Below are positions 3,069-49,787 of a stretch of DNA of 59,305 nt, one piece after another (positions within the stretch are counted from its first letter, which is position 1; each line of letters starts with the position of its first letter). A model generated the notes under the pieces. That model worked only from the letters and a program-made list of their open reading frames with translations, ran no database searches and was not told the DNA's origin. The DNA lies in NCBI GenBank assembly GCA_016210515.1, contig JACQTZ010000021.1, positions 1-59,305 of the forward strand. The letters run 5' to 3'. The DNA is from Chloroflexota bacterium. GTDB taxonomy: Bacteria > Chloroflexota > Dehalococcoidia > UBA2985. Position numbers and translations under genes: made by a program.

Positions 3069-3186
3069 CTCTGGCAGTGACCTATTTTCCCACCCCGTTA
3101 CCAGGGCAGTATCGTCGGCGCTGGGGCGTTTCACTTCCGTGTTCGAGATGGGTACGGGTGGTTCCACCCCGCCAGAACCACCAGAG
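3069..3186 (-). rRNA. rrf: 5S ribosomal RNA, not linked to 23S or 16S
   Basis: Read on the minus strand this 118-base stretch has the bacterial 5S signature: GAACCACCCGTACCCATCTC, then CGAACACGGAAGTGAAACG, and a 3' part ending CACTGCCAGAG. The ends CTCTGG and CCAGAG pair as helix I. No 23S gene lies upstream, where a phosphotriesterase gene begins 340 bases away on the other strand, and none lies downstream, where rpsA follows. It therefore stands alone with its own promoter. Confidence 0.95.
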
Positions 3187-15552: not shown

Positions 15553-15914
15553 AGTTGGTAGGCAGGCCGGGTGATCGCCCCGATGTAATCGGGGAGGAAA
15601 GTCCGAGCTCCACCGGGCAGGGTGCTGGCTAACGGCCAGGCGGGGTAACCCGACGGAAAGTGCCACAGAAAAAACACCGCCCCGAGCAATCGGGGTAAGG
15701 GTGAAATGGCGAGGCAAGAGCTCACCGCTCCGATGGTGACATCGGAGGTAGGGCAAACCCCACCCGGAGCAAGGCCAAATAGGGGGACAAAGGACGCCCG
15801 GCCCGTCCCCGGGTTGGCTGCTAGAGGCTTCGAGCAATCGGAGTCCCAGATAGATGGTCACCGTCCCGACTGTGTCGGGATACAGGACTCGGCTTACAGG
15901 CCTGCCTATCAACC
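15553..15914 (+). ncRNA. rnpB: RNase P RNA (M1-type)
   Basis: Catalytic RNA that matures tRNA 5' ends. Universal segments are visible: GAGGAAAGTCCGAGCTCC near the 5' end, CCACAGAAAA, GGGTAAGGGTGAAATGGCGAG with AAGAGCTCACCG, and the 3' block AGATAGATGGTCACC then ACTCGGCTTACAGGC. The ends GTTGGTAGGCAGGCC and GGCCTGCCTATCAAC pair as helix P1. The length (about 362 bases) fits type A. Confidence 0.95.
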
Positions 15915-16848: not shown

Positions 16849-17706
16849 TTACCTCGCCTTTTCCAGCACCAGGGGCGCGTGGTCCCGGTTGGCCCACTCT
16901 CCCATGGAGCCGTCGTAGTTGCGGACGCGAGGGTAGCCCAGCAGGGTGAGAACGAAGGCTCCGTGCGCCGCACGGATTCCTCCCTGTCAGTAGGTGATGA
17001 CTTGCTTGTCTGGGGTGACGCCGCGCTCCTCCAGCATGGCTCGCAGCTCGCGAGCCGGCCTGATGGTCTGGTGCTTGTCGCTGGTGACGAAGTTGAGCCA
17101 CTCCAGGTGTACCGCCCCAGGCACGTGGCCCGCCCGCCGGTTCCCCCGATCGTTGGTGCCCTCCCACTCGCCATCGGAGCGCACGTCGAGGAAAACGGTG
17201 TTCGACTGCCCTACGCAGGAGACACCGTAGTCCATCATGCACACCAGGCCGGGGCGCTCCCTGGGAGTGAAGGTAGCCTGCGCGGTTTGAGGCACGTCGG
17301 TGGTCACCGGACGGCCCTCGTCGAACCACTTGTTCCAGCCACCGTTGAGCACCTTGACGTTGCTGTGCCCGTAGTAGTTGAGGACCCACCAGACGCGAGC
17401 GGCGTAGAGGCCGCCGAACCCGTCGTAGGTTACCACCAGGGTGTCGTCCCCGATTCCTATGCTGCCCATGAGCTGGGCAACCTGCTCTGCGGACGCCACA
17501 AGGGGGTGGCTAGTGGGGTCTTTGGGATAGTCGGGGTGCTTGATGTAGTGGTGCTCGCGAATGCCCACGGCGTTGGTGATGTGGGCGCGACGGTAGCCAT
17601 CGTACTGGTCGCAGTCCACTATTCGCAGGTTGCGGTCGTTCAGGCGGGCCTCAAGCCAGTCCGACTCCACCAGAAGCTCAGGGTGGGCATAGCTGTCACT
17701 GGTCAT
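16849..17706 (-). CDS. two-domain rhodanese/thiosulfate sulfurtransferase with in-frame TGA at the catalytic cysteine (probable selenocysteine)
   Basis: Sulfurtransferase of the SseA/TST type. The N-terminal (inactive) rhodanese domain holds [17 protein letters not shown], and the C-terminal one holds [13 protein letters not shown] and [11 protein letters not shown]. The frame reads VITY, then TGA at 16989-16987, then [18 protein letters not shown] and a normal family C-terminus ([10 protein letters not shown]) to TAA at 16849. Reading through gives 285 aa, the usual family length. The TGA is codon 240, exactly where the family has its catalytic Cys ([10 protein letters not shown]). A SECIS-like hairpin follows at once. 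ATG 17706 has AGGAGGTG upstream. The alternatives, a TGC-to-TGA mutation or a sequencing error, are less likely given the hairpin and the intact remainder. Confidence 0.82.
16954..16983 (-). promoter_or_regulatory. candidate bacterial SECIS element
   Basis: Immediately downstream of the TGA the mRNA can fold as GGAGG (+4 to +8) with CCUUC (+29 to +33), a small A-A/G internal loop, then a perfect 7-bp stem UCCGUGC/GCACGGA and apical loop GGC. The apical GG lies at +18/+19 after the UGA. Bacterial SECIS elements are known to place a G in the first loop positions about 16-37 bases after the UGA, so geometry and loop fit. No folding program was run. Confidence 0.7.
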
Positions 17707-17882
17707 GGCTCACCTCCTGGGAAAGCGCCTTGCCGAATCTTGTGCCCATGATTGTATCATAGACGGCAGGCGTTCCAGACGCGTTCATGCCGGGCAGCGC
17801 TTGAGTTGCGCGAGAGCACGGGTTTCCCTACAATGGGCGTGCAGCAACCGACTATTGGCACTCCACGTCCCAGGAGCAAAAC

Positions 17883-21611: not shown

Positions 21612-21644
21612 GCAGGTGAGTCCTCTTTGTAACAACTGAATAGA

Positions 21645-21747
21645 GTCCAGCGGGAGCTTGGGAGTGCCAGGCTGAGAGGCCCCGATGCATGGGGGCGACC
21701 GTGGGAACCTGAACTGGGTAATGCCAGCGGAGGGAGAGCGCACCTGT
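21645..21747 (+). ncRNA. TPP riboswitch (THI element)
   Basis: Aptamer core read directly: GCGGGAGC, GGGAGTGCCAGGCTGAGAGG, the variable P3 arm CCCCGATGCATGGGGG, then GAACCTGAACTGGGTAATGC and CAGCGGAGGGA. CTGAGA and the CTGGGTAATGCCAGCG-type 3' core are the diagnostic parts. Followed by an intrinsic terminator, it should shut transcription off when thiamine pyrophosphate is plentiful. Confidence 0.95.
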
Positions 21748-21757
21748 TCACTCTTTG

Positions 21758-21787
21758 CACCGCTGATAGCCCGGCGGTGTTTTGTTT
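21758..21787 (+). terminator. intrinsic terminator of the TPP riboswitch
   Basis: CACCGC and GCGGTG form a 6-bp stem with a 10-base loop, directly followed by TTTTGTTT. It lies ten bases after the aptamer, so it is the expression platform. Confidence 0.8.
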
Positions 21788-21824
21788 ACAGGCGCCAGCT
21801 TTGACTGGACATAAAGGAGCTAGG

Positions 21825-22259
21825 ATGAAGCTTTGGAGCGAGGAAGTAGCTGAGGCAAGGGCGTTGATCGAGTCGGTGGTCAAGGAGCTTGATCCCGGGC
21901 TGGAATGCGACGCAGACGGACACCGCGGGTTCTACAACGACACGGTGGACGTGGTTCTGAGCAAAGGGGAGCGAAAAGCGTTCGTTGTAGTATCAGCTGA
22001 GTCTTGGATCAACGCAAAGACGAATCCACAAGTAATGAAGCAGGCATTCAACAGGGTCATTGGCGAGTTGAAATTGGAGCCGGACAAGGTGTTCTTGATT
22101 ACTACGGCGGGCCTTAAGGAAGTTGCTCTGGGGACGGAATGGGAAGCATTGAAGGAACCCGGAGGCTGGACCAAATTCGAGGACGAGGCTGCTTTTGTGG
22201 AGGGGGATAGAGAAGCAGAACGTATGATAAACCAATTGAAGGGTAAATTGGAGTCATAG
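21825..22259 (+). CDS. protein of unknown function, first gene after the TPP riboswitch
   Basis: 144 aa, not recognised. It is predicted soluble, acidic and mixed alpha/beta, with a run of beta strands (FYNDTVDVVLS, KAFVVVSAE) and the helix NPQVMKQAFNRVIGEL; there is no resemblance to any thiamine enzyme. ATG 21825 has AAGGAG seven bases upstream. The stop TAG is immediately followed by the GTG of a RelE-like gene, so the two form a pair. Base composition is visibly less GC-rich than thiG downstream, which hints at insertion into a thiamine operon. Confidence 0.65.
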   Translation: MKLWSEEVAEARALIESVVKELDPGLECDADGHRGFYNDTVDVVLSKGERKAFVVVSAESWINAKTNPQVMKQAFNRVIGELKLEPDKVFLITTAGLKEVALGTEWEALKEPGGWTKFEDEAAFVEGDREAERMINQLKGKLES

Positions 22260-22523
22260 GTGTATTTGTTCTTTAGGCCATCGGCATTGAGCATCTGGCG
22301 CGACGAATTGCCCCAATGGCAGAAAGAGCGAGTATCTGAGCGAGCAGTTGGGCTTCTACACGAACCACGGCCTCGAGCTGCACAATCTTTGGTAGTGTCA
22401 TCGGGCGAAGAAAGATACGAGGTATGGCAAGGTGACCTACGGATTGTCTACAGCATTTACAAAGACGACGATGGGCATGACGTGCTCATAGGCGTCTTGA
22501 GGATTGAGGAATATGGTAGCTAA
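22260..22523 (+). CDS. RelE/ParE-fold small protein (possible toxin)
   Basis: 87 aa with the RelE-type C-terminal sheet pattern [18 protein letters not shown] followed by [11 protein letters not shown]. The N-terminal helix pair [13 protein letters not shown] fits the same fold. The start is GTG 22260, abutting the previous stop. The last 11 bases overlap the thiG start. If it is a toxin, the 144-aa upstream gene would be an unusual antitoxin; it could also be a non-toxic relative. Confidence 0.6.
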
Positions 22524-23292
22524 CTTGACCATCGCCGGCAAACAGTTCACGTCCCGCCTGATTCTGGGCACAGGGAAGTACCGCTCCATGGAGGAGATGG
22601 TGAGCGCCATCGAGGCCTCCGGCACGGAGATGATCACCGTTGCGCTCCGCCGCCTGGACCTGGACGACCCCAATAAGAAGACCCTGCTGGACTACATAGA
22701 CTGGAGCAAGTACCAGATTCTCCCCAATACCGCAGGCTGCCGCACTCCGGAGGAGGCCCTTACCGTCGCCCGGCTGTCCCGGGCTATGGGCCTCTCCGAC
22801 TGGATCAAGCTGGAGGTTATTCCAGACCCCAAATACCTTCTTCCAGACCCCATCGGGACCCTGGAGGCGGCGAAAGCCCTTATTGCTGAAGGCTTCACTG
22901 TGCTCCCCTATATCCATGCCGACCCCGTCCTGGCCAGGAAGCTCCAGGAGATGGGGTGCGCCACGGTGATGCCCCTGGGCTCGGCCATAGGCTCCGGGCA
23001 GGGAATCCACACTGCGGAGGAGATTCAGATAATCATCGAGCAGGCCACCGTCCCCGTCGTGGTGGACGCGGGTCTGGGAGTCCCCTCGGACGCCGCGCAG
23101 GCCATGGAGATGGGGGCCGACGCCGTCCTGGTGAACACCGCCATTGCCCAGGCGGGCAACCCAGCCCTCATGGCCGAGGCCTTTCGCCAGGGGGTGGAGG
23201 CGGGGTTCAAAGCCTTCCACGCGGGACGAATTGCCAGGAGAACCTACGCGTCTGCCAGCAGCCCCCTTGAGGGCGTGGTGGGGCGAAGCTGA
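22513..23292 (+). CDS. thiG: thiazole synthase
   Basis: Makes the thiazole phosphate of thiamine from deoxyxylulose phosphate, dehydroglycine and ThiS thiocarboxylate. The 259 aa hold the TIM-barrel motifs [10 protein letters not shown], the Schiff-base Lys99 in [37 protein letters not shown] and [16 protein letters not shown] 22513 is the family start. The gene overlaps the RelE-like gene by 11 bases, so the thiamine genes follow the riboswitch only through two foreign-looking genes. Confidence 0.95.
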
Positions 23293-23307
23293 ATTGAGGT
23301 GAAACCT

Positions 23308-23967
23308 GTGCCCCCTGTACCCGTCCCTTGCCTCTGCCTGGTGACCGACAGGACGCTGTGCGGCCCCAACCTGTTGGAGAAGAAGGTTGCCGCGGCGATG
23401 TCGGGGGGAGTGGATATGGTGCAGCTTCGTGAGAAAGACCTGCCCGCAAGCGAGCTTCTGGAGCTGGCCTTGAAGCTGCGCTCCATCACCAGGGGGAAGG
23501 CCCTTCTCGTAATCAACGATCGCCTGGATGTGGCCCTGGCCGCCGGAGCCGATGGCCTTCATCTACCCCAGGACTCGCTTTCCGTTCAAGACGCCAGGCG
23601 GGTAGTGCCGTCGCACCTTCTGGTGGGCAAGTCCGTCCACGACCTCACCAGCACATCTCTGGCGGCAAAGGAAGGCGCAGACTACCTGGTCCTGGGCACC
23701 ATCTTCCCCACCTCCTCGCACCCCGGTGCTCACACCGGCGGCCTCAACCTCATATCTACCGTGACGCGCCAGGTGGACGCTCCCGTGCTGGCCATTGGTG
23801 GCGTTAACTCCAGCAATGTGGCCTCGGTGGTGGGGGCGGGGGCGAAGGGGGTCGCCGTCATCAGCGCCATCCTGGCTGCGCCGGACCCGGAAAGGGCTGC
23901 CAGGGAGCTGAAGCACTCCCTGATAGCAGCTTGGGAAGCCAGGGAAGGGCTTGCTCTGCACTCATAA
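23308..23967 (+). CDS. thiE: thiamine-phosphate synthase
   Basis: Joins the pyrimidine and thiazole moieties. 219 aa with CLVTDRTLCG, VDMVQLREKDL, LLVINDRLDVALAAGADGLHLPQ, the phosphate loop TIFPTSSHPG and VLAIGGVN. GTG 23308 is chosen because GAGGTGA lies six bases upstream; that same site overlaps the GTG at 23299. Confidence 0.94.
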   Translation: MPPVPVPCLCLVTDRTLCGPNLLEKKVAAAMSGGVDMVQLREKDLPASELLELALKLRSITRGKALLVINDRLDVALAAGADGLHLPQDSLSVQDARRVVPSHLLVGKSVHDLTSTSLAAKEGADYLVLGTIFPTSSHPGAHTGGLNLISTVTRQVDAPVLAIGGVNSSNVASVVGAGAKGVAVISAILAAPDPERAARELKHSLIAAWEAREGLALHS

Positions 23968-23971
23968 GCTC

Positions 23972-24175
23972 GTGATTACCCTGACCATCAACGGCCGACG
24001 CCGAAAGCTAGAGGGGCCTACCCCGCTCATAGATTTCCTTCGTTCCAGTGGAGTCAACATTCAGTTCATTGCCGTGGCTCGCAACGGAGAGGTGGTGGAA
24101 AGAGGGCGCTTTTCTGAGGTTATTCTGGACGAAGGGGATGAGGTTGAGATAGTCCGCCCCGTGGGTGGCGGATAA
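23972..24175 (+). CDS. thiS: sulfur carrier protein ThiS
   Basis: 67-aa ubiquitin-like carrier ending in the required Gly-Gly tail (VRPVGGG). The LTINGRRRKLE strand and IAVARNGEVVERGRF motif are typical. GTG 23972 lies four bases after the thiE stop. Carboxy-terminal adenylation would need ThiF or a MoeB-like protein, which is not in the window. Confidence 0.88.
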   Translation: MITLTINGRRRKLEGPTPLIDFLRSSGVNIQFIAVARNGEVVERGRFSEVILDEGDEVEIVRPVGGG

Positions 24176-24190
24176 GCCCACGAAGGGAGC

Positions 24191-25306
24191 ATGGTGACAT
24201 CGAATAAACACGTTGTGGTCATAGGCGGGGGAGTCATCGGCTGCTCCATCGCTTACCATTTGGCAAGTGCTGGAATCAGGGTGACGGTGGTAGAGCGGGG
24301 TAGGGTAGGGGGGGCTGCATCGGGTGTGGCCGCTGGCATGGTGGCGTCGCTTTCGGAGGGGTACTCCCAGGGCGAGCCCCTCAAGCTGGCCCTGGGGAGC
24401 CGCGCACTGCTGCTGGAGCTGCTGCCCCAGCTTCAAAAAGAGTCGGGCATAGATGTGGAGTACCGTTCACCCGGCATTCTCCACATTGCCAAGACCCCGG
24501 AGGAAGAGGAGGGTCTCAAGGCCCGCCTGAAATGGCAGGAGCCGTTGAATATGGGGGTCAGGTGGCTGACCGCCCAGGAGTTGCGCCGCATGGAGCCAGC
24601 CCTGGGAGAGGGCGTTCGGGGCGCTCTGTTCTCGCCCCAGGAGGGGCATCTGAACAGTCGGAGGCTGGTCAGGGCCTTTGCCCAGGGAGCGGCCAGACGG
24701 GGAGCCACCCTGCTTCAGGATACTGAAGCGATGGGCCTCGTGCAGCAGGAGCGCCGGGTTGTCGGCGTGCGACTTGCCTCAGGCAACCTGGAGGCGGACT
24801 GGGTTGTGCTGGCCTCTGGGTCATGGGTGGGCCAGTACCGTGACTGGCTGGGGGTGGACATCCCGGTGCATCCGGTGAGGGGGCAGATTCTGGCAGCCCG
24901 CATCCTTCCATCGCCCATCTCCGCTATCGTATGGCACGGGTTGACCTATCTGCTTCCCAAGGCCGACGGCTCCATCGTCATTGGGACGACTCAGGAAGAC
25001 GCGGGCTTTCGCGACCAGCCCACTATTGAGGGCATAGCTGGAATCCTCTCCAGGGCGATTGAGCTGGTTCCCGCCATGGCAGGGGCTGGGCTGCACAAGG
25101 CCTGGGCTGGCTTGCGTCCGGCCTCCCCGGATGAGATCCCCATTCTGGGCCCGATAGATGGATGGGAGGGGGTCCTGATGGCATTGGGCCACTATCGAAG
25201 CGGCATGCTCTTCAGCATGGCTACAGGGAAGCTGATTACGGACTACATCGCCAGGGGAGAGGAGACGCCCCTTCTGCCTTTTGGCCTCTCCCGGTTCGCC
25301 TCCTAG
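24191..25306 (+). CDS. thiO: glycine oxidase ThiO
   Basis: FAD enzyme that oxidises glycine to dehydroglycine for thiazole synthesis (371 aa). The dinucleotide-binding motif VVVIGGGVIGCSIAYHLA is at the N-terminus, followed by ASGVAAGMV, and the substrate-domain motifs GQILAARI and GLRPASPDEIPILG, then GHYRSGMLFSMATGK. ATG 24191 has AAGGGAG upstream. This aerobic route (ThiO rather than ThiH) fits a non-strict anaerobe. Confidence 0.92.
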   Translation: MVTSNKHVVVIGGGVIGCSIAYHLASAGIRVTVVERGRVGGAASGVAAGMVASLSEGYSQGEPLKLALGSRALLLELLPQLQKESGIDVEYRSPGILHIAKTPEEEEGLKARLKWQEPLNMGVRWLTAQELRRMEPALGEGVRGALFSPQEGHLNSRRLVRAFAQGAARRGATLLQDTEAMGLVQQERRVVGVRLASGNLEADWVVLASGSWVGQYRDWLGVDIPVHPVRGQILAARILPSPISAIVWHGLTYLLPKADGSIVIGTTQEDAGFRDQPTIEGIAGILSRAIELVPAMAGAGLHKAWAGLRPASPDEIPILGPIDGWEGVLMALGHYRSGMLFSMATGKLITDYIARGEETPLLPFGLSRFAS

Positions 25307-41824: not shown

Positions 41825-43735
41825 ATGTCACCCACCATGGCAGTTGACGCTACACGATTACCAACCTACAATTGTTCTTATCTTAGAAGCAATCCAAAGG
41901 TCAAAACGAATGTGAAAAGCAATTCTTTGGTGGGAGTAGCTGATGAATCCGAAAGCAGCCATCCTCCCATCCCCTTTCGGAAGCAGCTGCGCCTTCGCAT
42001 TGCCCTCGAACTGGCGTTGGGACTTACCATACTCTTCGGCCTTTACGTGGGGTTAATGTGGTGGGCTGTCCACATCAGCACCATCAGGGCAATGCAAGGG
42101 ATCGAGGCCGCTACTGAGCAGATGGCAGCCATGGTAGAGGACATAGTAGGAATTGCAGGGCGTCAGCTAGATGCCGTGGCACGAGAAGCCGAGCTTGGGG
42201 TGAATGACTCGGCCACAGCCCAACAATGGGGCATGGTGAGGAGCCTGTTGCTTCCCGTAGGTAGCTTCGAAAGCATAGGCGTTGCAGACCAAGAAGGGCG
42301 GTTGCTATGGAGCGAAGGGAGGCCCGCCGATGAGCAGGTGTGGCTGACGACTTCAGCGTTAGCGCAGGCACTGCGCAAAGGAGAGTCGGCGGTCGCTATT
42401 GGAGAACGAGCAGATGATTCCCGCATCTTTATCATGGTTTCCCCCCTTAACAGCCCCCCAGGGACAGAAGCAGGAGCTTTACTAGGCAGCCTGAACCTGA
42501 CCAGCCTGGGTGTACAGATCCTGTTCATGCCTGCGGGGGGCAAGGGATTGAGAGTGGATGTAGTAGATAGTGGAGGCGGCCTTCTGGCAAGCTCTATGGG
42601 TAGCGGCATCCGGTACGCAAATCTGGCGCACTTGACTCTGCTTGGTGATGCGCTCAGGAAGGGCGAAAGCAAAGTGGTGATCCATGACACAGGGGGTGCA
42701 TATGGTCACGTGGTGGCCTTCGTTCCTTTTAAGGACATCCCCGGAGGCGTTATTCTGGAGGAGGAGAAGGCCGCAGCCTTGGCTATACCGCGGCAGTTGC
42801 ACCGTCTTGGTCTCATCATCGGCTCCATTGCTCTGGTCATCCTTTCCCTCATGGTTTGGTGGCATATCGGCCGAATTACCCGTCCCATTGGAGAACTGTC
42901 GGCAGCCGCCAGTGCTATGGCTGATGGCTCCTTCGACCGACGGGTCCCTGTGACCAGCAAAGACGAGTTGGGCCTTCTGGCTTATAGCCTTGAGATGATG
43001 CGAGTGAGGCTGAAGAGCGCCTGGGAGCTAAGGCAACGATGGGTCCTGGAGCTGGAGCAGCAGGTAGAGGAACGTACCGGAGAAGCTCATCGACTCTTGG
43101 GGAGAGTTGTGTCCGCGCAGGAGGATGAGCAGAAGAGGGTGGCGCGGGAGCTACACGATGGAGCAGCCCAGCATCTGGCTACGCTTTTGGTGGCGTTGGA
43201 CAGGGCGGAGCTTCTTCTCCTTAGCGGGAACCAGCCGGGAGAGGAGATCTGGCACCAAGCACAGGAAGAGGCGCGCCAGGCGTTGGCAGAGATACGTCGG
43301 CTCGTGTCTGGCCTGCGCCCCGCAGCCCTCGATGACTTGGGCCTCGTCCCGGCCATACGGGGGTACGCCGAGAATCGGCTCAAACCACTAGGAATCATGC
43401 TTCGCTATGAAGTAGTGGGCCAAGAACGGCGTTTGGGCTCCTCTCTGGAGTCAGCCCTCTTCCGCATCGTTCAGGAGGCAGTGAACAACGTGATCAGACA
43501 CGCCGAAGCCCAGCACGTCCGGGTGCAATTGGAATTCACTGGGAAGGCCGTGAGCGCCACTGTGGAAGATGATGGCGTTGGGTTTGACTCATCAGCAAAA
43601 AGCCAGGGGATAGGGCTGGCCGGAATGCGGGAACGGGCCTCCCTGGTTGGGGGAGTTCTATCTCTTCATTCTAGCTCCAAGTCAGGGACTCGCGTTAGTG
43701 TGACTATTCCCCTTCCGGAGGATGCTCATGGCTGA
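41825..43735 (+). CDS. NarL-type sensor histidine kinase with extracytoplasmic sensor domain
   Basis: 636 aa. Segment 57-82 is transmembrane; about 245 residues outside the membrane resemble a CACHE/PAS-like sensor (SIGVADQEGRLLWSEG); TM2 is 327-347; HAMP about 348-400; coiled coil; HisKA_3 with phospho-His444 in RELHDGAAQHLATLL; HATPase with VNNVIRHAEAQHVRV and GIGLAGMRERASLVGG. ATG 41825 is uncertain, as the first 50 residues look non-conserved. The response regulator overlaps its last 8 bases. Confidence 0.92.
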   Translation: MSPTMAVDATRLPTYNCSYLRSNPKVKTNVKSNSLVGVADESESSHPPIPFRKQLRLRIALELALGLTILFGLYVGLMWWAVHISTIRAMQGIEAATEQMAAMVEDIVGIAGRQLDAVAREAELGVNDSATAQQWGMVRSLLLPVGSFESIGVADQEGRLLWSEGRPADEQVWLTTSALAQALRKGESAVAIGERADDSRIFIMVSPLNSPPGTEAGALLGSLNLTSLGVQILFMPAGGKGLRVDVVDSGGGLLASSMGSGIRYANLAHLTLLGDALRKGESKVVIHDTGGAYGHVVAFVPFKDIPGGVILEEEKAAALAIPRQLHRLGLIIGSIALVILSLMVWWHIGRITRPIGELSAAASAMADGSFDRRVPVTSKDELGLLAYSLEMMRVRLKSAWELRQRWVLELEQQVEERTGEAHRLLGRVVSAQEDEQKRVARELHDGAAQHLATLLVALDRAELLLLSGNQPGEEIWHQAQEEARQALAEIRRLVSGLRPAALDDLGLVPAIRGYAENRLKPLGIMLRYEVVGQERRLGSSLESALFRIVQEAVNNVIRHAEAQHVRVQLEFTGKAVSATVEDDGVGFDSSAKSQGIGLAGMRERASLVGGVLSLHSSSKSGTRVSVTIPLPEDAHG

Positions 43736-44528: not shown

Positions 44529-44606
44529 ACGAAACTGCTTGACTCGCTAAGAAACGGAAAGGGATCCCATCGCCAGGGGTGTTTCGAGTCGTGTAGGAGG
44601 TGCATG

Positions 44607-45413
44607 ATGGTACGCTCAAAGTTAAGGGTGCTCGTCGCGGCGGAATATCCTGCTGTTCGGCAGTTGCTCTTGGATGTGGTAAGGGAGGAACCCGGAGCGA
44701 TTGTAGTCGGCGAGGCTGAGAACTCTGGCAGGGCGATTGCGCTGGCTAAAACACTCAGACCGGATGTGGCGCTGGTGGATTGTTATCTACCCCAAGCCCA
44801 GGGAATTGACTTCAATCGGCTGTCTCGAATAGCAGGCCTGGATACAGCCTGGGTTATTGCTGAAGAGACACGAAACACGCAGGCTGTTGTGCTTGTCAAT
44901 CTCAACGAAGCTGTCCTTCAAGACGGGGCTTTGACCGTAGCATCGAAGGCCTGCTTCCATAAAGAGGAGGGGGCAAATACTGTCGCCTTTACCCTGCGCG
45001 AGCTCTACCAAGAGTCTTTGTTGCCAGCAAGCCCTGTCTTGGCTAATGTCCAGGTGGAAGAGGGTGCGCCGGTTCGGCCTAAGCTCGCCGCTGTGGCTGA
45101 GGATGTCCTCTCAGTCAGCGGCCTGACCCTAATAGGGGGCTTGTGCCTGATAGCGACCTTCGTTCTGGCACCCATCGGGGCGGTTGTGGCTCTGGCTGGA
45201 CTGGGTGGGCTGCTTGTCAGCCTGGCCATGCGGGCGGTGGCATCGGTATGGCCCAAGCACTTCCTACATTCCCAGGTCCCCTCAGCTTCGAAAAGCGTTA
45301 CCCATGACCTGGGTCAGGAGAGTGTGCTGGTTCTGGGCACGGGGGAAGGGTGGAAGAATGGGAACGGGAATAAGAGTAACGAACGGGAATATAGATATAA
45401 GAGTAGCGTCTGA
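44607..45413 (+). CDS. degenerate receiver domain fused to a membrane hairpin
   Basis: 268 aa. Residues 5-120 read as a receiver fold (KLRVLVAAEYPAVRQLL, then RPDVALVDCYLP with Asp58), but the acidic pair expected after the first strand is missing (AAEYP). Two hydrophobic segments (about 160-205: VSGLTLIGGLCLIATFVL and the following) give a membrane hairpin; the tail is rich in Gly, Asn, Lys and Arg (GWKNGNGNKSNE). No DNA-binding domain. ATG 44607 fits AGGAGG better than ATG 44604. It looks like a membrane-tethered signalling or adaptor protein. Confidence 0.7.
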   Translation: MVRSKLRVLVAAEYPAVRQLLLDVVREEPGAIVVGEAENSGRAIALAKTLRPDVALVDCYLPQAQGIDFNRLSRIAGLDTAWVIAEETRNTQAVVLVNLNEAVLQDGALTVASKACFHKEEGANTVAFTLRELYQESLLPASPVLANVQVEEGAPVRPKLAAVAEDVLSVSGLTLIGGLCLIATFVLAPIGAVVALAGLGGLLVSLAMRAVASVWPKHFLHSQVPSASKSVTHDLGQESVLVLGTGEGWKNGNGNKSNEREYRYKSSV

Positions 45414-47039: not shown

Positions 47040-48287
47040 ATGGTTACTGAGCCCAACAAAGACAGCGCTCAAGGGCAACTGCAGGAGCAGCCTATGGGGG
47101 AGCTTCCGTGGGCAACATCACCCGATCCTGAGCTGGGGAAGCAGGTGGCAAGAGACGCTCAGCGAGTGGTGGCCGGCGAGCTCTCCGAAGAGGAGTTTTA
47201 CCAGAGATACCACGATGCCTATCTCCGAGAGTTCGGAGTTGACGACAGGCCCCTCAACCGTCGAGACGGCCCCAGGTTTATCTCTGTCGATGAAGCCGGT
47301 AAGGCCACGGTGGCAAAGGCTCCAAGGCCCATGACCAACGAGCCTTTGTCCCGTCGCGCCTTTCTCATGCTGGCAAGCGGAGGCGCAGCCGCGCTAGCGC
47401 TAAGCACCACCCTGGGGCGGCTGGTTCCAAAGGTCGCTTACGGCCGCATGGTGGAGGATGAAGGAAACCCCCTGGCCAAGGCTGCCGGCGAGCAGCCTGA
47501 GCACGGAAGGCGCGTTCAGATGGGCATGGTAATCGATCTGGAGCGCTGTACGGGCTGCCTGGTCTGCGTCGATGCCTGCCACCGCGAGAACAACACCGAA
47601 GAAGGGGTTCACTGGATCTACGTTGTCCCTTACAAAGAAGAAGGCCAGGAGGACTTGAACTTCCTGGTGCGGCCGTGCCAGCACTGCACCAACCCTCCGT
47701 GCGTGAAGGTCTGCCCGGTGATGGCTCGGCACAAGCGGGAGAAGGATGGCCTGGTTCTCACAGACCAGGACAAATGCATTGGCACCCGGTACTGCCAGGT
47801 CGCCTGCCCCTACGGTGTCAACTATTTCCAGTGGGGACAGCCGAACCCAGATACAGAGATGATACGACAGCACGGTCGCAAAGACTATCGGGGTCGAACG
47901 GTAGAGTTCAACCCTCCCAGAGGGGTGATGGGTAAGTGCACCTTTTGTCCCCAACGACAGGACAGCGAAGGGAAGCGGGGGACTACCAGCTGCCAGCAGG
48001 CTTGTCCTCACGATGCGATACACTTCGGGGACATGAACGACCCCAACAGCGAGCCGCGCCGGTATCTGGAGAGGAGGCGACAGGAGAAGGGAGGACACCT
48101 ATCAACCTTTCGGCTCCTGGATGAGTTGGGGACGGAGCCCAATATCCTGTACATCGGCCCGCAGCCATCTCGGCGCGCCAAGCAGGTAGATGGACCCATC
48201 ACGTATGAAGACTGGGGCTGGGTGGATAGGCGGGGGACGGTGTTAGAAGGCCCACGTCCCTGGTTTATGCGCGTGTTCGGAGGCTAA
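47040..48287 (+). CDS. Tat-exported iron-sulfur subunit (PsrB/NrfC/ActB-like, three 4Fe-4S plus one probable 3Fe-4S)
   Basis: 415 aa. A long N-terminal extension (about 1-100) precedes a Tat signal, SRRAFLMLASGG, at 104-115, like the extended Tat regions of some ACIII-type proteins. Cysteine groups: 170/173/176/180; 213/216/221/225; 246/252/256, where CIGTRYC has Thr249 in place of the usual second Cys; and 300/303/318/322. The missing Cys suggests a 3Fe-4S cluster, as in NarH or ActB. It should pass electrons between the NrfD-type protein and the CuA-cytochrome c protein. The stop lies three bases before the next ATG. Confidence 0.88.
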   Translation: MVTEPNKDSAQGQLQEQPMGELPWATSPDPELGKQVARDAQRVVAGELSEEEFYQRYHDAYLREFGVDDRPLNRRDGPRFISVDEAGKATVAKAPRPMTNEPLSRRAFLMLASGGAAALALSTTLGRLVPKVAYGRMVEDEGNPLAKAAGEQPEHGRRVQMGMVIDLERCTGCLVCVDACHRENNTEEGVHWIYVVPYKEEGQEDLNFLVRPCQHCTNPPCVKVCPVMARHKREKDGLVLTDQDKCIGTRYCQVACPYGVNYFQWGQPNPDTEMIRQHGRKDYRGRTVEFNPPRGVMGKCTFCPQRQDSEGKRGTTSCQQACPHDAIHFGDMNDPNSEPRRYLERRRQEKGGHLSTFRLLDELGTEPNILYIGPQPSRRAKQVDGPITYEDWGWVDRRGTVLEGPRPWFMRVFGG

Positions 48288-48290
48288 CCC

Positions 48291-49787
48291 ATGGATGTTC
48301 AAGTCAGAGAAGCCCCACTTCTTGAGACCCTGGTCGGGCGGTCGAGGAGGTTGTACAGCAGAGAAGACCTCATCCTAAGGACCCTGGGCCGGCCGTCGTT
48401 GAAGTTCTACCTCCTGCTGGGGGCCGCCGGTGGACTTGTCGCCTGGTTCGCGTATGCCTGGTCCTTCGCTCTCCGTTACGGCCTGATAACCACCGGGCTG
48501 GGCGACTGGGGGTCTGGGGGAGGCGTGACCTGGGGCATGTTCATTGGCGCGTACATCTGGTGGATCGGCATTGCGCACGGCGGGATCATAATCTCGGCAG
48601 CGGTCCGCTTGTTCAATCTGAGAAGCTTAATGCCCGCGGCTCGCCTGGCGGAACTGCTGACGATCGCTGCCCTGAGCATGGCGGCCATGTTCATCGTTCT
48701 CCACCTGGGACGGCCCGACCGTATGGTGGTGAGCATAATTCGGGCCTTTCCACGGGCCGTTTTCTCCTCGCCGCTAGCCTGGGATGTTCTGGTTATCACA
48801 CTATACTTCACCCTGACGGCGACATACGTGCTGCTGACAATACGGCGGGACCTCTACGCGATTCGGGGCCGTATAGGCAATGGAGCTGTGTCCCCCGGGG
48901 GTCACGTCCAGGGTCCCTCTGCCATTCGGAGCCACCTGGACAATGAAGAAGCTATGGCACCGAGGGGACACGTTCGCGACCACCCCACGGGTCGGGTTCG
49001 CATGCCCGCTCTTCTCCCTCTCCTGCACAGGGTGCTCTTGCTGGGGTACCGGACGGAAGAAGACGAGAAGGTAGAGCGCATGGTGTGGTGGCTGGCTTTG
49101 GCGGTTATCATTCTTGCCCCGCTGTTCTTGCACGGCGGCGTCATCCCATGGCTCTTCGCCATAGTCCCGTCCATGCCGGGTTGGTACGGCGGAATCCAGG
49201 GCCCCACCTTCCTGACCATAGCGCTCACCTCGGCCCTGAGCGGTGTAATCGTCGTGGCCTATATCTTCAGACGGGTCTACGGGTGGGAAGAGATTATCCC
49301 TGACTCGGTCTTCAAAAGTCTCACCTTCTTCCTCATCATCTTCGCTATCCTGTTCCTGTGGTTGCAGGTTCAGGTCCTTGTCACCGGGTTGTATGCCGCG
49401 CCTTCGGCAGTGGAGGAAGTCACGCAAGCCAAGGTGCATACGCCGGCGTACTGGCTGGCCATCGGCCTCGTCGTCGTTGCCATTGCCTACCTGGGTGCCC
49501 AGAGGCTGCGCCCGTCTCTGTTCAATCTCCATCGCACCTTCGTCGTTGCATTCTTCCCCCTGGCGGCCACCCTCATTGAAAAAACCCTCTTCGTAGTCGA
49601 GGGTTTGATGGAACCACGGTTCGCCATTTATCGAGCGATACCAGGAACATATTGGCCGTCGTGGATTGAACTGTCCTCGATCATGGGGACTGTCGCCTTG
49701 GTGGTGCTCTTCTTTGCGCTCATTCCCAAAGTGATACCGGTTGTCGAAGTCAAGGCGGAGGAGGACAAAAGGGAGCACGATGCTTGA
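48291..49787 (+). CDS. NrfD/PsrC/ActC-type quinol-interacting membrane subunit
   Basis: 498 aa with about ten hydrophobic segments. The N-terminal WGMFIGAYIWWIGIAHGGI region and FIVLHLGRPDRM are typical of the NrfD superfamily, where quinol is bound near the outer face. A polar insertion of about 50 residues (around GHVQGPSAIRSHLDNEEAM) forms a long loop between helices. Together with the iron-sulfur gene it makes a PsrBC/ActBC-like pair. Its last 8 bases overlap the next small gene. Confidence 0.9.
   Translation: MDVQVREAPLLETLVGRSRRLYSREDLILRTLGRPSLKFYLLLGAAGGLVAWFAYAWSFALRYGLITTGLGDWGSGGGVTWGMFIGAYIWWIGIAHGGIIISAAVRLFNLRSLMPAARLAELLTIAALSMAAMFIVLHLGRPDRMVVSIIRAFPRAVFSSPLAWDVLVITLYFTLTATYVLLTIRRDLYAIRGRIGNGAVSPGGHVQGPSAIRSHLDNEEAMAPRGHVRDHPTGRVRMPALLPLLHRVLLLGYRTEEDEKVERMVWWLALAVIILAPLFLHGGVIPWLFAIVPSMPGWYGGIQGPTFLTIALTSALSGVIVVAYIFRRVYGWEEIIPDSVFKSLTFFLIIFAILFLWLQVQVLVTGLYAAPSAVEEVTQAKVHTPAYWLAIGLVVVAIAYLGAQRLRPSLFNLHRTFVVAFFPLAATLIEKTLFVVEGLMEPRFAIYRAIPGTYWPSWIELSSIMGTVALVVLFFALIPKVIPVVEVKAEEDKREHDA

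Follow-up and report, generated by a model that had tools for sequence, protein, structure and literature searches.

The stretch of DNA analysed (hereafter the window) comprises 59,305 nucleotides of a Chloroflexota contig, and its minus strand carries a gene for a two-domain rhodanese with a single TGA codon inside the reading frame. The gene and the elements associated with it are listed below.

16849..17706, minus strand: predicted two-domain rhodanese selenoprotein gene, 285 codons/residues, ATG at 17706, TAA at 16849-16851 (Pfam Rhodanese PF00581; PDB match 1uar)
17713..17718, minus strand: Shine-Dalgarno-like AGGAGG, 6 nt before the ATG (read from the sequence)
16987..16989, minus strand: UGA codon 240, predicted to be read as selenocysteine (Sec), at the catalytic position of the C-terminal rhodanese domain (TGA/Cys in relatives; alignment to 1uar and 1e0c)
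16960..16976, minus strand: putative bacterial SECIS hairpin, 7-bp stem UCCGUGC-GGC-GCACGGA with the loop GGC at 16967-16969 (folding, 58 TGA genes)
16963..16977, minus strand: codons +4 to +8 (ATC CGT GCG GCG CAC), a synonymously frozen core (codon comparison between TGA and Cys genes)

Other features of the window include a thiamine cluster on the plus strand (21640-25306), a pair of genes resembling dsrO and dsrP with regulatory genes upstream, and three types of structured RNA; at gathering score, no other rRNA family was found within the window.

3069-3185, minus strand: 5S rRNA gene
15559-15912, plus strand: RNase P RNA (class A)
21640-21753, plus strand: TPP riboswitch (thiamine cluster)
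21777-22259, plus strand: open reading frame without a family match (thiamine cluster)
22504-23292, plus strand: open reading frame with weak TIM-barrel matches (thiamine cluster)
23299-23967, plus strand: thiamine phosphate synthase ThiE (over the TIGR00693 cut-off)
24191-25306, plus strand: glycine oxidase ThiO (over cut-off)
41825-43735, plus strand: histidine kinase, upstream of the DsrO/DsrP-like pair
44604-45413, plus strand: response-regulator domain, upstream of the DsrO/DsrP-like pair
47040-48287, plus strand: iron-sulfur protein resembling DsrO (under the cut-off of the DsrO model)
48291-49787, plus strand: NrfD-type membrane protein resembling DsrP (under the cut-off of the DsrP model)

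From the ATG at 17706, the rhodanese frame runs through 239 open codons to its single TGA (16987-16989) and then through 45 more codons to the TAA at 16849-16851. An earlier interpretation made from the letters of the DNA (the sequence-only reading) had described this same arrangement, and its coordinates were recovered when the minus strand was read again. When the UGA was translated as a residue, PF00581 matched the 285-residue product in two stretches (127.3 bits) with the catalytic residue in the second, which is the architecture of two-domain, SseA-type rhodaneses. The best PDB match was 1uar (E 9.4e-49), which we take to be the two-domain rhodanese of Thermus; 1e0c, presumably RhdA of Azotobacter, was matched too. 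In the sequence alignments, residue 240 fell on the Cys of YCRIAERSS (1uar) and of THCQTHHRS (1e0c), in agreement with the claim that the TGA sits at the active-site Cys of the C-terminal rhodanese domain. The active-site loop reads UQGGIR, and there is no Cys inside it as a resolving partner. The 3-mercaptopyruvate sulfurtransferase model NF008557 (PRK11493) scored 114.5 bits against a cut-off of 250 bits; the protein, though related, should therefore not be named a 3-mercaptopyruvate sulfurtransferase.

Relatives were taken from genomes as the best 80 of 482 loci, ranked by likeness to the Sec query, which favours TGA genes, and from protein databases as the best 120 of 7203, ranked in the same way and including the window's own protein. 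The sequence-only reading had proposed aligning homologues to see whether the TGA pairs with Cys, and it does: codon 240 was TGA in 57 genes (55 of these best 80 of 482 loci) and Cys in the remaining 25 of the 82 genes, encoded by TGC in 24 cases and by TGT in one. The open frame beyond codon 240 measures 41-51 codons in the TGA genes (58 with the window's own) and 40-43 codons in the 25 Cys genes. The locus thus combines what is expected of a selenoprotein gene, an in-frame UGA opposite Cys in homologues and conservation on both sides of it. By record title, the TGA genes in the best 80 of 482 loci belong mostly to Chloroflexota, the others to Binatota, Tectomicrobia and a few bins with different labels. 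In the protein set (best 120 of 7203), 111 of the 120 sequences ended at residue 237-240, 8 were full length and one ended elsewhere; automated annotation makes dead enzymes of these proteins by cutting them just before the active-site residue.

Some loci showed further peculiarities. Two Chloroflexota assemblies each contained two TGA rhodanese genes close to each other, at about 7750 and 8700 in L053 and at about 1510 and 3445 in L062; in the tree, each copy groups with its positional counterpart in the other assembly, which suggests a duplication older than the split between the two. In the Tectomicrobia assembly KatS3mg131 (L029, 8001-8845), the alignment came in two pieces split around residue 227, and this assembly seems to carry a frameshift upstream of the UGA. 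The L029 gene, being split over two frames, is absent from the rooted tree described below; it was kept in the codon counts and is 30% filled in the 83-row tree.

For the RNA directly after the UGA, the sequence-only reading had claimed a hairpin of 5 bp plus 7 bp, with GG at the start of the apical loop, 18-19 bases from the UGA. Folding, which it had also proposed as a check, returned the 7-bp hairpin with the loop GGC; this loop starts after 17 nt from the UGA, so that its two G are indeed the 18th and 19th bases. The stability of the hairpin was only modestly above that of shuffled sequences (z -1.98; 7 of 200 shuffles folded at least as well), and it is the comparison with relatives that makes the strong case. 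The hairpin was formed in all 58 TGA genes, 17 nt past the UGA and with at least 5 bp, and its loop was GGC in 57 of them and GUC in one. Whereas the 7-bp stem was common to the TGA genes, the lower helix was not conserved: counted from the U of UGA, the pair 9-34 was present in 14 of the 58 genes and the pair 10-33 in 20 of the 58. All 58, window counted, lie within the bSECIS constraints given in PMC13188914, section 5 (apical loop of 3-9 nt, stem of 4-16 bp, a G within the first two loop bases, 16-37 nt from the UGA, MFE <= -7.5 kcal/mol). Our implementation allowed loops of up to 14 nt, although all 58 had 3 nt, and took the energy over 45 nt from the UGA. None of the 25 Cys genes fitted the bSECIS model with the loop and spacing of the TGA type, but 10 of the 25 had some other hairpin compatible with a loose SECIS model. 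Because these Cys genes also pass, the SECIS model alone is not specific, and the hairpin by itself is weak evidence. Five of these ten Cys genes (L073, L074, L075, L078 and L079) form a 5-bp hairpin with a larger loop, CGGCGCA, 16 nt past the Cys codon and almost in the SECIS position; these structures may be remnants of an earlier Sec gene or may just reflect the shared amino acids.

Codon usage over the same region distinguished the two forms of the gene. At positions +5 to +8, the TGA genes used CGT (58/58), GCG (58/58), GCG (57/58) and CAC (57/58), where the Cys genes used several synonyms; the Arg codon at +5, for instance, was CGC in 11 Cys genes, CGG in 10, CGT in 2, AGG in 1 and CGA in 1. 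Thirty-one codons were well conserved, meaning that the residue was kept in at least 80% of the TGA genes (n = 58), and a single synonymous codon was found only at the contiguous positions +4 to +8, the other 26 using 2 to 6 synonyms. The stem is nearly invariant across the TGA genes and no compensatory changes could be counted, so that the case for a SECIS is built on the freezing of synonymous codons instead of covariation. This pressure on silent sites, confined to genes with UGA at codon 240, is the strongest argument for the predicted Sec. An extended pattern, TGACARGGNGGNATCCGTGCGGCGCAC, was searched in nine genomes and matched once per genome in the eight TGA genomes (8/8), at the rhodanese gene, with no match in Tepidiforma, which has the Cys form. 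Elsewhere in the TGA genomes, the same SECIS pattern gave short matches that are perhaps due to chance, since a backward control matched in 6 of the 9 genomes; other SECIS types fall outside this pattern.

SelB and tRNA-Sec were searched for in the genomes of 50 of the 80 loci (25 of the 55 TGA loci and all 25 Cys loci), and SelA and SelD in those of 10 of the 80 (nine TGA, one Cys). SelB was over its curated cut-off in 25/25 TGA genomes versus 16/25 Cys genomes (Fisher p 0.0016, kinship and genome completeness not taken into account). A tRNA-Sec of at least 58 bits was found in 25/25 TGA genomes versus 18/25 Cys genomes (p 0.0096, with the same reservation), this line having been set post hoc from the gap between 59.7 and 54.2 bits. 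The Rfam cut-off for tRNA-Sec, 47 bits, is lax: it was passed by 47 of the 50 genomes, and a control search also exceeded it in 5 of 14 known genomes. ARAGORN called a tRNA-SeC(tca) for two examples, one of which (locus L084) comes from the genome of L001, the nearest relative. SelA and SelD were both over cut-off in 9/9 TGA genomes tested, and neither was over cut-off in the complete genome of Tepidiforma flava (Cys form). SelD itself had one in-frame TGA in 5 of the 9 TGA genomes, that of L086 among them. Because SelB was also found in 16 and tRNA-Sec in 18 of the 25 Cys genomes, the machinery alone fails to predict the Sec form. The sequence-only reading had named a complete genome devoid of Sec machinery as a refutation; each of the 25 TGA genomes of relatives that were searched has SelB, and judging from them, the window's own genome would be expected to encode the Sec machinery.

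On the 83-row tree, the Sec/Cys label changed twice, compared with a mean near 22 for shuffled labels. When the tree was rooted on ten Cys paralogues from the same genomes, the subfamily formed one group (SH-aLRT 96) with three label changes. The simplest reading, one gain of Sec followed by two reversions to Cys, is put forward as a suggestion, given the many weakly supported deep forks, the long branches that meet and a sample biased towards Sec. Paralogues were sought in eight TGA genomes and in Tepidiforma. At least one further, near full-length rhodanese without an inner stop was found in 6 of the 8 TGA genomes; G015 gave a weak partial match only, and G012 had none. All ten retrieved paralogues (two from Tepidiforma) carry Cys in the loop.

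Neighbouring open reading frames within about 8 kb (less at contig ends) were clustered for 81 loci, 56 of them with TGA (window counted). Among the 25 largest clusters, there was no broadly shared neighbour apart from frames overlapping the gene itself. The upstream amidase keeps its position in L001 and L002, and a biotin ligase recurs at varying distances in L001, L002 and L076. In 11 TGA loci, a gene for a luciferase-like monooxygenase is found some 3 kb upstream; it may point either way, and proteins of opposite orientation share only 25-34% identity. A short-chain dehydrogenase occurs here and there in 14 loci, and a PGI-like protein is encoded near four TGA and six Cys loci. Judged by gene context, no recurring neighbour points to a substrate. 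In viral contigs, five stretches fitted a pattern and none of them encoded a relative.

Sec insertion at UGA240 in a rhodanese-family enzyme is, in our assessment, very probable. As the sequence-only reading had claimed, Sec would stand in place of the catalytic Cys, because TGA and Cys exchange at this position, the hairpin codons are locked in TGA genes only, and SelB, SelA, SelD and tRNA-Sec are present in the genomes of relatives. We propose that SelB carrying Sec-tRNA (anticodon UCA) would bind the hairpin directly 3' of UGA240, and that Sec would be inserted there instead of termination, as the anatomy of the site, its conservation and the relatives' machinery suggest. The product would be a sulfurtransferase of the two-domain rhodanese/SseA type, with a selenolate in the loop UQGGIR as its catalytic nucleophile. 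In the most likely reaction, a donor (thiosulfate, 3-mercaptopyruvate or a persulfide, for example) would give up a sulfane sulfur to the selenolate; this would yield a selenenyl-sulfide (Se-S) intermediate on the enzyme, from which the sulfur would be handed to a thiol acceptor. It is homology that points to sulfane-sulfur transfer by the window's rhodanese, and we consider this step likely. Sec in a sulfurtransferase would swap the persulfide for a selenenyl sulfide, and would offer a test of why organisms pay for selenium outside the classical redox enzymes.

Several other explanations of the UGA were weighed. Gene callers stop at this codon, and the early ends of 111 of the best 120 of 7203 proteins are what a sequencing error, a nonsense mutation or a pseudogene with a dead 239-residue protein would produce. 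The same TGA, however, recurs in 57 genes of relatives, with 41-51 intact codons after it and frozen hairpin codons, which leaves such an origin a negligible chance. A decoding of UGA that involves no selenium, in which an altered code or a suppressor tRNA supplies Cys, Trp or some other standard residue, would fit the 25 genes with Cys at this position, since an inserted Cys would give a working enzyme. We hold this to be extremely unlikely: UGA is an ordinary stop that ends 3 of the 5 window genes checked and 11 of the 58 TGA-bearing rhodanese genes, the hairpin core is tied to the UGA, and tRNA-Sec and SelB occur in all 25 TGA genomes searched. Residues 1-239 include the complete N-terminal domain and the greater part of the C-terminal one, so UGA240 might instead act as a selenium-dependent switch with a truncated form that is functional too. 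That form would lack the catalytic residue and its loop, however, and the 25 Cys genes, which fall in two groups of the tree, have no such switch, making this idea very unlikely.

A different possibility accepts Sec insertion but sees the protein's main function in thiol/peroxide redox chemistry or in carrying selenium, as a perselenide donor towards SelD. The idea that a rhodanese loaded with selenium may donate it already exists and would favour the carrier role. The redox role would agree with the argument, made in PMC9312934, that most uncharacterised Sec proteins are likely redox proteins. Against both roles, the two rhodanese domains are retained, and SelB was under cut-off in 9 of the 25 Cys genomes, with Tepidiforma flava also having neither SelA nor SelD over cut-off; these Cys genomes argue that the family's role needs no selenium. 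The loop, moreover, offers no resolving Cys. Taken together, we regard a mainly redox or carrier function as rather improbable.

A broader history can be put forward tentatively, as a possibility to which we give less than even weight. Sec would be ancestral in a large sulfurtransferase subfamily of Chloroflexota, Binatota and Tectomicrobia and would have been acquired, along with its SECIS, in a single event, the hairpin core of ~13 nt staying nearly frozen; reversion to Cys would have happened at least twice, some of the Cys genes still having a hairpin in that position. The Sec enzyme would carry out a distinct sulfur (or polysulfide) transfer needing selenenyl-sulfide chemistry, a distinct role being proposed because Cys paralogues persist in most of the TGA genomes looked at. 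Natural Sec and Cys versions within one clade, together with paralogues in TGA genomes, make a direct comparison possible.

Sec-containing rhodaneses have been described before. The Sargasso Sea selenoproteome of 2005 (PMC1088965) reported a Sec-containing COG2897/SseA rhodanese-related sulfurtransferase with 3 sequences, which bears out the sequence-only reading's statement that such proteins are listed among marine-metagenome selenoproteins. The GOS study (PMC2398784) counts Sec sulfurtransferases including cd01449 (8) and COG2897 (1) in its first count column. The family also appears in the predicted-selenoprotein table of a 2022 review, with MQG53192.1 (PMC9312934), and as rhodanese-like form 4, UxxG, with MCY3690685.1, in a 2026 review (PMC13188914). 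Among the open-licence papers listed, no title dealt with this Chloroflexota-rich Sec clade or with a characterised two-domain Sec rhodanese.

As far as these sources describe it, the published COG2897 Sec rhodanese resembles the window's protein in being SseA-like, in having Sec where homologues have Cys, in its U-x-x-G motif (UQGG here), in a predicted bSECIS directly downstream and in widespread Cys homologues. It differs in the number of sequences, these sources giving few (3 from the Sargasso Sea; 8 and 1 from GOS) compared with the 57 relatives' genes found here among the best 80 of 482 loci. We infer that the window's gene is a member of this COG2897/form 4 family, the comparison being by COG, motif and description rather than by alignment. 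The NCBIfam models NF041203 and TsoB (NF045694) also describe rhodaneses named selenoproteins; they matched weakly (33.3 and 23.1 bits), far under their cut-offs (115 and 805 bits), and their Sec motifs, according to PMC13188914, are others (CxU and UxxxxU). With 1uar and 1e0c, the protein shares the rhodanese fold by sequence, the catalytic position and an alignment over nearly the whole length, but these two have Cys, in the loops CRIAER and CQTHHR, where the window's protein has UQGGIR. By sequence evidence, the predicted Sec rhodanese is real and is probably not a new kind of selenoprotein. The present analysis adds how broad the clade is, how little its SECIS core varies, and a tree on which a single gain of Sec with two returns to Cys is favoured; for this branch the evidence is unusually clear.
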